Positions 7,968-10,479 of a stretch of DNA of 64,000 nucleotides are shown here, piece after piece. The DNA is from Malaciobacter mytili LMG 24559 (GTDB lineage: Bacteria > Campylobacterota > Campylobacteria > Campylobacterales > Arcobacteraceae). Location of the stretch: the NCBI RefSeq assembly GCF_003346775.1, contig NZ_CP031219.1, forward strand, positions 310,001 to 374,000, in the 5' to 3' direction. How positions within the stretch are numbered: the first letter of the stretch is position 1; each line of letters opens with the position of its first letter. Both the position numbers and the translations under genes were made by a program. The notes beneath the pieces were generated by a model. That model searched no databases and was not told the origin of the DNA. It saw only the letters and a program-made list of their open reading frames with translations.

Positions 7968-9245
7968 TTAGAAAGAGTATTGTACTTGTAATCTTCCAAT
8001 TGTTCCATCATTATCTTTAGATTTTGTTCCATCTACATAATCATTTTCAAATTCAGCTTGACCTAATCTAATATATCCACCAAAGTTTTTAGACATTTGG
8101 TAAGATGCTTGAACATAGATTTCTGTATCAGTTGAATCTTTTGCTCTTACATCATTTTTATCTTTATCTAATGTATGGTAGTTAAGAGAGATATTTAAAG
8201 ATGGTAATACTTGTACATCAGCTTTAACTTGTAAATATTTAGCATCAGCCACACCGTTTAATTGAACAGTGTACCCTTGCATCCCTGTTAATGCATCATT
8301 ATCAAGTGCTGCTAAACCACCTTCAGAATCAGTCCATCCGTAGTTAACGTTTGCACCAAAAATTCCAGCTTTTAATCCTAATTCAATTTTTGTTAAAGAG
8401 TTATCTTCTTTTGCAAAATCTTTACCTGCTAATTCTTTATCAGCATCTAATTGAGTATGTCTAGCACCTACAGATAATTTAACTGCATCTAAATCAAAAT
8501 TAGCTTTTGCACCAATTGTAAATGTATCAAATGAATCTTGCATATCTAAATACCATGCATCTAAAGCAACTGGTCCAATATTAGCCATTGCACCAACAGT
8601 AATTACATTTGAATCTCCACCTAATACAGATGCATCAGTTTTTGAATTATATAATTTAACTGCTTTTGCTCCTAAAGCTTTACTTCCATTAATAGAAACA
8701 TCTGTTGATTTATTTAAGTTAGTTTGGTTAAAGTATGCACCAGCTAAAGTAACAGGTCCAACATTTGTTAATGCTAAGATACCAGTACCAGTTTGCTCAT
8801 TTCCATCAGCATCAATTGCTACAGTCCATGGAGTTGTTAAACCTTGTTTACCAACATTTACAGTTGTATTAGCAATTCCTGTATATGAAAAATAAACATT
8901 ATTTAAAGAAATATCAGCTTGTCCATCACCACCATTAGTATTGTTTAGTGATACAAAATCTCCATTAGTTTGAGAACCAACAATAAATCTTGTAACAGCA
9001 GTTACATCATCATTAACTTTAGATTTTAAAGTTAAACCGATTTTATATTTATTATTTGATAAATCTCTATCTGAATCATTATCTCTTGCTTTATCTTCAA
9101 AAGCTCTATCATCATATCTATATACTACTGTACCAGATACATCTACATTTTTAATTGCTTCTTCTAAAGCTTTAGCTGAAGAAGTAGTTGAAAGACCAGC
9201 AACTGCAACAGCAGCAACTAAACTCATTTTTGCGAATTTTTTCAT
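7968..9245 (-). CDS. major outer membrane porin (MOMP type), copy 2
   Basis: A 425-residue beta-barrel porin with a signal peptide ending SSA before KALEEAIKNVDVSGTV. It shares the first strands (VYRYDD, KSKVNDDVTAVTRFIVGSQ), the segments GKQGLTTPWT and GNEQTGTGI, and the terminal LQVQYSF with copy 1. It is longer, mainly from an insertion around residues 180-215 and extra loop residues. It has its own strong terminator and a longer, structured leader, so it is probably regulated separately from copy 1. Confidence 0.88.
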   Translation of the reverse strand: MKKFAKMSLVAAVAVAGLSTTSSAKALEEAIKNVDVSGTVVYRYDDRAFEDKARDNDSDRDLSNNKYKIGLTLKSKVNDDVTAVTRFIVGSQTNGDFVSLNNTNGGDGQADISLNNVYFSYTGIANTTVNVGKQGLTTPWTVAIDADGNEQTGTGILALTNVGPVTLAGAYFNQTNLNKSTDVSINGSKALGAKAVKLYNSKTDASVLGGDSNVITVGAMANIGPVALDAWYLDMQDSFDTFTIGAKANFDLDAVKLSVGARHTQLDADKELAGKDFAKEDNSLTKIELGLKAGIFGANVNYGWTDSEGGLAALDNDALTGMQGYTVQLNGVADAKYLQVKADVQVLPSLNISLNYHTLDKDKNDVRAKDSTDTEIYVQASYQMSKNFGGYIRLGQAEFENDYVDGTKSKDNDGTIGRLQVQYSF

Positions 9246-9341
9246 TTGTTCTCCTAAAATTTCGAAATTTAATAATCAGTTTACCGGAGCGCGCGAACCA
9301 TCCTAATTTAAGTTATTAGAAACCTATCCCGATACACCGTT
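9246..9341 (-). promoter_or_regulatory. structured 5' leader of porin 2
   Basis: The leader holds a GC-rich patch (9284-9302, core GGTTCGCGCGCTCCGG on the minus strand) in otherwise very AT-rich DNA. It also has a perfect 14-bp palindrome AAATTTCGAAATTT (9257-9270) just upstream of the ribosome site AGGAG. A hairpin so close to the ribosome site could modulate translation. No known riboswitch was recognised. Confidence 0.4.
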
Positions 9342-9347
9342 ACGCAA

Positions 9348-9353
9348 ATTGTA
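9348..9353 (-). promoter_or_regulatory. possible -10 of porin 2
   Basis: TACAAT on the minus strand, preceded by TG in the extended -10 position (TGTACAAT). It would start transcription near 9341 and give a leader of about 95 bases. Confidence 0.35.
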
Positions 9354-9424
9354 CATAAGTAAATTTTAAAGTTTTCTTAAAATATCTTTTTTCAACAGTT
9401 TTGCTTATAAATTTAAGCTATATT

Positions 9425-9736
9425 TTACTTTGTTACACTTACCTTGCAATTAGGCAAAATTTGGGGTTTGCAAATAGTTAGTTTCAATTTAGTTACATTA
9501 TACTTGTCACGAAGGTGTCTCTTTAAATAAAGAAGAGCATCTTCTATTAATTCAAACTTTTTTTCTATCATAATAGTTTCTATATCTTTTGCAACTAAAG
9601 AGTAGTCTATAAATTCACTATTTTTATATTTATATTTTATTTTACAATTTATAACTACTTGTTGAGCCATTTCTCTTTCAAAAGGCAAAATACCAATAAT
9701 ACAATTAAAAGTTAAATCTTTGATTTTTATTTTCAT
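9425..9736 (-). CDS. folB: dihydroneopterin aldolase-like
   Basis: FolB cleaves dihydroneopterin in folate synthesis. The 103-residue protein begins MKIKIKDLTFNCIIGILPFER, the typical FolB start (I-G-x-x-x-x-E-R), and has DYSLVAKDIE and the late KLTICKP segment. It lies downstream of plsY on the same strand. Its ATG overlaps the stop of a 14-codon frame (ATGA) that comes out of the 39-bp repeats, so its translation may be coupled to that mini-frame. Confidence 0.82.
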   Translation of the reverse strand: MKIKIKDLTFNCIIGILPFEREMAQQVVINCKIKYKYKNSEFIDYSLVAKDIETIMIEKKFELIEDALLYLKRHLRDKYNVTKLKLTICKPQILPNCKVSVTK

Positions 9737-9777
9737 TTAAATAGCTTTCTTTTGATTTGCGAAAACAAAGTCATCAT
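9733..9777 (-). other. 14-codon mini-ORF leading into folB
   Basis: On the minus strand ATG-ATG at 9777-9772 opens a 14-codon frame (MMTLFSQIKRKLFK) whose TGA overlaps the folB ATG. Two upstream copies of the same start, at 9855 and 9816, end after seven codons (MMTLFSE) in TAA. The first ATG at 9855 follows the plsY TAA directly. These could be translation-coupling leaders; whether they are translated is unknown. Confidence 0.3.
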
Positions 9778-9866
9778 TTAGATAACTTCTTTTTATTCGG
9801 AAAACAAAGTCATCATTTAGATAACTTCTTTTTATTCGGAAAACAAAGTCATCATTTAGATAACTT
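9761..9866 (-). repeat. 39-bp tandem repeat between plsY and folB
   Basis: Units start at 9761, 9800 and 9839 (period 39, i.e. 13 codons). The first two are identical through the core; the third runs to about 9866 into the 3' end of plsY. A degenerate half unit (about 9741-9760) runs to the folB start. Each unit repeats the plsY stop, an ATG-ATG start and the purine-rich AAAGAAG. The array seems to have grown by duplication of the plsY end. Confidence 0.9.
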
Positions 9867-10479
9867 TCTTTTCCTCTCCCCTAACAAGTCTAATAATATT
9901 TGGGATATGTTTATAGTAGATAATAAAAGCTATGATATACATAGGAGCATTGCTTCCAACTTCTAAACCATTATTAAAAATTAAAGCACTTAATACCACC
10001 CCAGTTAATCCTAAAAGTGAAGATAAAGAAGAGACTTTTAATACTTTTGCACAAAATCCCCAAACAATAGCTCCAATTAGTGTTGGAATAGGAATTAATA
10101 CCACAAAAACACCAAGTCCTGTTGCTACACCTTTCCCACCTTCTAATCCTAAGTAAATAGAATAACAGTGCCCTAATACAGCAAGTACTGCAATAGCCCA
10201 TAAAGTTTCAATAGGAGTATTTAAACTCATTGCTACAAGTAAAACAGCTGTTCCTTTTAACGCATCTAAGATTACAGTTGCAATTCCAAGTTTTTTTGCT
10301 AAGCTTGGATTTGTTTGCTTAACTACTCTTAATACATTTGTAGCTCCAATAGAACCACTCCCTGCACTTTTAATATCCACTTTAGCAAATACTTTTGCCA
10401 AAATTAGTCCAAATGGAATTGAACCAAATAGATATGCTGCAAGATAAAAAAGTAGATTTGAATTAGATAAAAAATCCAT
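9856..10479 (-). CDS. plsY: acyl-phosphate glycerol-3-phosphate acyltransferase
   Basis: PlsY transfers an acyl group from acyl phosphate to glycerol 3-phosphate, the first step of membrane phospholipid synthesis. The 207-residue integral membrane protein has the family motifs FGSIPFGLILA (near 18), SGSIGATNVLR (about 40-50) and GGKGVATGLGV (about 113-124), with several membrane helices. The C-terminus LVRGEEKKVI lies inside the 39-bp repeat array. It is divergent from nadA. Confidence 0.95.
   Translation of the reverse strand: MDFLSNSNLLFYLAAYLFGSIPFGLILAKVFAKVDIKSAGSGSIGATNVLRVVKQTNPSLAKKLGIATVILDALKGTAVLLVAMSLNTPIETLWAIAVLAVLGHCYSIYLGLEGGKGVATGLGVFVVLIPIPTLIGAIVWGFCAKVLKVSSLSSLLGLTGVVLSALIFNNGLEVGSNAPMYIIAFIIYYKHIPNIIRLVRGEEKKVI

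Follow-up and report, generated by a model that had tools for sequence, protein, structure and literature searches.

The window, a 64,000-nucleotide stretch of the Malaciobacter mytili LMG 24559 genome, carries on its minus strand plsY, encoding glycerol-3-phosphate acyltransferase (9856–10479; an open reading frame matching PF02660 with E 7.8e-43), followed by folB, encoding dihydroneopterin aldolase (9425–9736; PF02152, E 1.2e-16), and the interval between them is occupied by 39-nt repeats on the same strand, comprising three units and a partial fourth. TRF placed the array at 9733–9872 with a period of 39, 3.5 copies and a score of 229, the top score of the window, where the runner-up array reached 80. 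The period was exact across all three units and the repetition set in at about position 9876, inside the coding end of plsY rather than at its stop codon (TAA, 9856–9858). On the minus strand plsY ends in ...KKVI-TAA, followed by ATG-ATG-ACT-TTG-TTT-TCC-GAA-TAA. Unit 1 (9838–9876) consists of GAG-GAA-AAG-AAA-GTT-ATC-TAA plus 18 nt, the final 16 being approximately the reverse complement of the plsY coding end. Units 2 (9799–9837; four differences from unit 1) and 3 (9760–9798; one difference from unit 2) follow the same pattern with small changes, GAG-GAA being replaced by GAA-TAA, and the partial fourth copy (9733–9753), which agrees with the 5' half of the unit in 19 of 21 letters, makes up the folB leader and start.

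The initial annotation had described the repeats as reiterations of the plsY stop/start junction, and such they proved to be: TAA-ATG-ATG is present in each of the three units, together with the mini-frames MMTLFSE (9832–9855), MMTLFSE again (9793–9816) and MMTLFSQIKRKLFK (9733–9777), each closed by a stop codon, and the TGA of the last overlaps the folB ATG (9736) as had been stated. The ATG of the first mini-frame is not conserved and the second frame was not seen in other arrays. The site AAAGAAG, assigned by the same annotation to every unit, has no exact copy in unit 1, because this unit carries plsY's own AAAAGAAAG codons, and matches to the letter only in units 2 and 3.

Each unit is an inverted repeat, a feature not noted by the initial annotation, and the array RNA was predicted to fold into three hairpins, one per unit, the last codons of plsY forming the 5' arm of the first and the bases 3' of the stop codon its complementary 3' arm. 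The fold of the whole array had a z of -5.56, with none of 200 dinucleotide shuffles equally good. Unit 1 gave the most stable stem-loop (-17.6 kcal/mol); folded singly, unit 2 (-9.5 kcal/mol) and unit 3 (-9.7 kcal/mol) were weaker; the hairpin of unit 2 alone was modest (z -2.3, 9 of 300 shuffles equally good), and unit 3 with the downstream stretch was equalled by 2 of 300 shuffles. The loops stand 39 nt apart and the unpaired linkers in single-unit folds are shorter than 15 nt, so that the three predicted hairpins have the spacing of a hairpin cluster (at least two hairpins less than 15 nt apart). A stable stem-loop, better than that of shuffled sequence, is also what an intrinsic terminator has. 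The stems are AT-rich and the 3' arm CUUUGUUUU is U-rich, but its U-run is interrupted, and a terminator-pattern scan requiring at least three G-C pairs did not flag the stems. The best Rfam match of the array, to a snoRNA family whose gathering score is 85, reached only 23.5 bits (E 0.12).

Several other identities were considered for the repeat. A dispersed element (REP/BIME-like) or an uptake sequence was rejected, as neither the unit nor its linker was enriched elsewhere: within six genomes of the genus, the unit (up to three mismatches) was confined to three places at the array locus, and the linker motif occurred four times in the host genome (two of them in the array) versus two for its reversed control, and 11 versus 12 times over eight genomes. 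Two other places where the host genome matched (L002, L003) reflected an AT-rich likeness to the folB start and not the unit. In M. mytili the folB leader resembles the plsY end more than all of 58 control leaders do, and the idea that folB leaders in general carry a remnant of the plsY end was tried and discarded, since only this genome among 33 passed the 0.05 level of controls, with about 1.65 expected to pass. On the opposite strand, a frame of 69 codons (69 aa; 9757–9966, plus strand) with a 13-residue repeat KQSHHLDNFFLFG spans the array; it had no Pfam match, was taken as a mechanical result of the repetition, and is probably without meaning as a peptide-coding frame.

Stem-loops at gene ends in the window

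Convergent gene ends and wide gaps between co-directional genes are the places where terminators are expected. Sixty non-overlapping open reading frames of at least 90 aa served as gene proxies, which leaves out RNA genes and may include some false genes, and each gene end was folded from 24 nt before to 32 nt after the stop codon against 100 mononucleotide shuffles. Hairpins with z of -2.9 or lower were found at 17 of the 28 likely transcript ends versus none of the 32 others (Fisher p 6e-8), the likely ends being assigned from gene layout as convergent or widely spaced, and plsY itself preceding a co-directional gene. Among convergent ends, 10 of 16 had such a hairpin; among co-directional ends the figure was 7 of 12 where the gap measured 80 nt or more and 0 of 32 where it was smaller. 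The remaining 11 of the 28 likely transcript ends had no such hairpin by the same measure. The plsY end was the most extreme of the 60, with both the lowest energy and the lowest z (-7.0, mononucleotide shuffles). The stop codon was crossed with at least 11 pairs in 9 of the 17 hairpins, so a stem straddling the stop is one usual terminator style in this window.

plsY–folB junctions across Arcobacteraceae

The gene folB was found in 101 of 104 Arcobacteraceae genomes and 100 plsY–folB junctions were extracted, G075 being left out as its short stretch held no plsY match. The gap was counted from the plsY stop, with the folB start taken from the BLAST match, by which some gaps are off by a few codons (135 or, to the ATG, 123 nt in G041; 49 or 37 in G091). 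By this count 43 of the 100 gaps were negative, that is, overlaps, 24 were of 0–19 nt, 26 of 20–60 nt and seven above 60 nt. Among these seven longest, six corresponded to tandem arrays and the seventh belonged to G103, whose 93-nt gap (L045) contains short tandem repeats, TTATTAGTA-like and TATACCAA-like, unlike the hairpin unit.

The presence of a stem across the plsY stop separated gapped junctions (at least 20 nt; 33 of 100) from the other 67. A compact stem, defined as 11 bp or more spanning the stop with no more than one mismatch and a loop of 3–12, was present in 27 of 33 gapped junctions versus 1 of 67 others, and a fold z of -2 or lower against dinucleotide shuffles was reached by 25 of 33 versus 6 of 67. 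Eight gapped junctions did not reach z -2, and in two (G053, G102) no convincing hairpin was seen. A looser definition with eight crossing pairs was non-discriminating (32 of 33 gapped, 40 of 67 others) and was replaced by the stricter one. The pairing of the 5' and 3' arms of the same junction exceeded that of reassigned arms in sum (z 10.3, none of 20,000 permutations), albeit no more than 8 of 33 rows had the own arm as the best of all partners, since plsY ends are alike. Among the 29 stems with 10 or more pairs, both-sided pair changes occurred at 11 of 24 positions, with a Watson-Crick alternative at 10 of these 11. At position -8, for instance, T-A is replaced by C-G in genus g18, and at -6 A-T gives way to G-C in g10 and g19; these counts are biased towards pairing because the stems were picked by complementarity. 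Such hairpins recur in several genera, and the comparison of sequences identifies the terminator-like stem-loop across the plsY stop as the conserved feature of the junction.

Tandem hairpins, assigned by eye, were present in 6 of 100 genomes from three genera, and their copy number differs between species: three units in M. mytili, two hairpins in G041 (genus g5), and one to three hairpins plus partial copies in G086–G089 (g18). The stems of the G041 and G086–G089 arrays have diverged. The distance from the first to the second loop in the five other arrays was 40, 37.5, 44, 37.5 and 37.5 nt versus 39 nt in M. mytili, and later loops, some of which are not units, followed at 20.5–36.5 nt (77 in G041). 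The direct repetition of the plsY end was clear in G041 (0 of 500 shuffles), G086 (1 of 500) and G089 (0 of 500), weaker in G088 (18 of 500) and not significant in G087 (73 of 500). Second hairpins were equalled by few shuffles in G041 (0 of 300), G086 (1 of 300; a shape different from that of the unit), G087 (3 of 300) and G089 (2 of 300), and weak later hairpins were found in G088 and as the third of G087 (22 of 300 each). On the 100-tip plsY tree, built without the last nine residues, the hairpin state changed at least 18 times and the tandem state at least four times, both counts being rough since 47 of 97 inner branches were poorly supported.

Among 62 additional loci, 48 share their junction with a surveyed genome. 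The remaining 14 (the Arcobacter MAG L142, L153–L157 from Campylobacter or other Campylobacterota, the truncated L159 and seven distant bacteria) were inspected by eye and fold energy only and stand outside all counts; no array was seen in them. In some ungapped junctions with overlapping genes, such as L084 (G094) and L096 (G079), early codons of folB (ACTTTT, for instance) pair with the end of plsY, and this pairing is a possible precursor of the hairpin. Three g10 genomes (L052, L079, L086) have in common a folB leader block with direct GGTTACA repeats, e.g., CTTAAGGTTACAAAAAGGTTACATC, which sits between the plsY hairpin and folB.

Possible function and origin of the array

The stem-loops at the junctions and at gene ends of the window point to the array being a tandemly amplified, stop-codon-straddling putative intrinsic terminator or attenuator that separates folB from plsY, a reading to which we give a probability of about two in three. 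Each hairpin would terminate or attenuate transcription leaving plsY and the units would act as terminators in series, with read-through to folB falling with copy number, approximately as the product of the single read-throughs. Expression of folB would be kept at a low level and set apart from that of plsY, and the number of copies would set folB relative to plsY. It is plausible, then, that the array sets folB expression, and the repeats probably dial folB down rather than encode tiny peptides. The polymerase would probably reach folB through leaky termination or, alternatively, start at a promoter within plsY. Of the 32 junctions with a stop-crossing stem by the loose definition, a set to which that of M. 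mytili belongs, 21 have a hairpin that ends at most 27 nt before the inferred folB start, leaving little or no room for a separate folB promoter; this favors leaky read-through and makes an attenuator likelier than a full insulator.

Translational coupling and re-initiation occur at overlapping stop-start junctions, and the initial annotation had seen in the array a possible relay, in which ribosomes terminating on plsY would restart at TAA-ATG-ATG and run along the mini-frames to folB, the copy number tuning translation. Like such junctions, the array has TAA-ATG, in each unit, and ATGA, by which the last mini-frame overlaps folB; plsY and folB overlap in many relatives (43 of 100 gaps negative), and the SD-like AAAGAAG stands 8 nt upstream of the ATGs in units 2 and 3. 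Unlike in such junctions, however, the mini-frames are not conserved in relatives. An ATG directly follows the plsY stop in only 1 of 33 gapped junctions, that of M. mytili (in two others an ATG lies no more than 8 nt away), so re-initiation on the mini-frames finds no support as the conserved principle, and the attenuator reading does without it. The 13-codon phase that changes in copy number had been said to preserve holds in the M. mytili array but is not kept at the spacings of 37.5–44 nt elsewhere: the five other arrays, from two other genera, retained the hairpins without a stop-adjacent ATG or the 39-nt phase. Moreover, the SD-like site lies within the stem, the starts lie in loop and stem, and mini-frames 1 and 2 stop ahead of the next start, all of which makes the relay unlikely.

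Equally doubtful is a role in mRNA 3'-end stabilization or processing, whereby the hairpins would protect the plsY part of a bicistronic mRNA or separate it after cleavage, making mRNA levels unequal with no termination of the polymerase. The stem-loops do stand at the end of the upstream cistron, and in clostridial operons the folding energy of stem-loops is reported to affect the stability of the upstream transcript (PMC9045158), but in the window such hairpins are found at likely transcript ends, a distribution that agrees with termination. The array could play both roles at once.

A quasi-palindromic junction might also expand and contract by slippage with no effect on expression. Units 2 and 3 differ at only 1 of 39 positions, so the expansion looks recent; arrays are rare, with 6 in 100 genomes and at least four changes of the tandem state on the tree; and template switching can both create and correct stems (PMC8794818). 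Against such neutrality stand the second hairpins of G041, G086, G087 and G089, which diverged and yet beat shuffled sequences (22 of 300 shuffles equalled that of G088), and the recurrence of stop-crossing hairpins in several genera; a neutral slippage product is quite improbable.

Least probable of all, and hardly to be expected, is that the array, written as A-A'-A-A'-A-A'-A, is a pairing-register switch by which plsY translation controls both read-through and access to the folB start: A' pairing with the preceding A would give the terminator with the folB RBS free, or A' might instead engage the following A, at a predicted -4.9 kcal/mol each time and -4.2 kcal/mol for the final pairing, which would cover the folB leader. 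A ribosome terminating on plsY would mask the initial A and might thereby move the register while the RNA is still emerging, and copy number would set the gain, but the equilibrium energies strongly favor the terminator register (-17.6, -9.5 and -9.7 kcal/mol), so such a switch would have to act during transcription.

The inverted arm of the putative attenuator may have arisen by fold-back copying (template switch) where plsY and folB once overlapped or abutted, and slippage during replication would later have multiplied the hairpin. Like the template-switch hairpins of PMC8794818, the array is a near-perfect inverted copy of the adjacent sequence with matching changes in both arms; unlike those, which concern RNA genes, it would be a template-switch product at a gene junction. 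Template switching as the process behind the inverted arm would accord with that work and could keep the arms matching without selection.

Parts of the suggested arrangement have precedents. In E. coli, the inverted repeats that follow stop codons are described as belonging mostly to terminators (PMC6060812), and hairpins less than 15 nt apart are reported to be common after stop codons and to act in concert (PMC8355165). Like the intrinsic terminators of the latter report, the array has its stem-loop placed at the stop codon, with one arm rich in A and the other in U, and holds several hairpins close together; it differs from those clusters in being a tandem duplication of one 39-nt unit, in the coding nature of its first 5' arm, in having few G-C pairs and in its position inside a conserved gene pair that overlaps in many relatives. 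Internal terminators set stoichiometry within operons for Ruminiclostridium ABC importers (PMC9045158), and here, too, a stem-loop lies between co-directional genes, where leaky termination would lead to unequal expression; in contrast to those, the array is tandem, straddles the upstream stop, varies in presence among related species and is known from sequence. Transcription start sites of Epsilonproteobacteria are treated in PMC3847290. Neither a tandem duplication of a stop-codon terminator nor plsY–folB in Arcobacteraceae appeared in any title among the matches listed from the open-licence literature; two of the listed papers contain the phrase "tandem terminators". Hairpin clusters and stoichiometry-setting internal terminators are already known; the array adds to them a tandemly amplified terminator-like hairpin partly made of the upstream gene's own codons. 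If the attenuator reading is true, terminator-like hairpins come and go within one conserved gene pair, with the last codons of the upstream gene as their material and with tandem multiplication in a few lineages; relatives with 0, 1, 2 and 3 hairpins would make terminator copy number as a graded attenuator directly testable, and template switching as a source of new terminators would become testable as well.

Beyond folB on the minus strand lies a major outer membrane protein (porin) gene (7968–9245, PF05538), whose 5' leader (9246–9370, minus strand) had no Rfam match. A G+C-rich block of this leader, GGTTCGCGCGCTCCGGTAA..., is conserved across three genera in an alignment of eight loci that had been chosen for an exact 12-letter match, and consensus pairing of ACGGTGTATCGG with CCGGTAAACTG was predicted; the sequence may be a structured regulatory leader.
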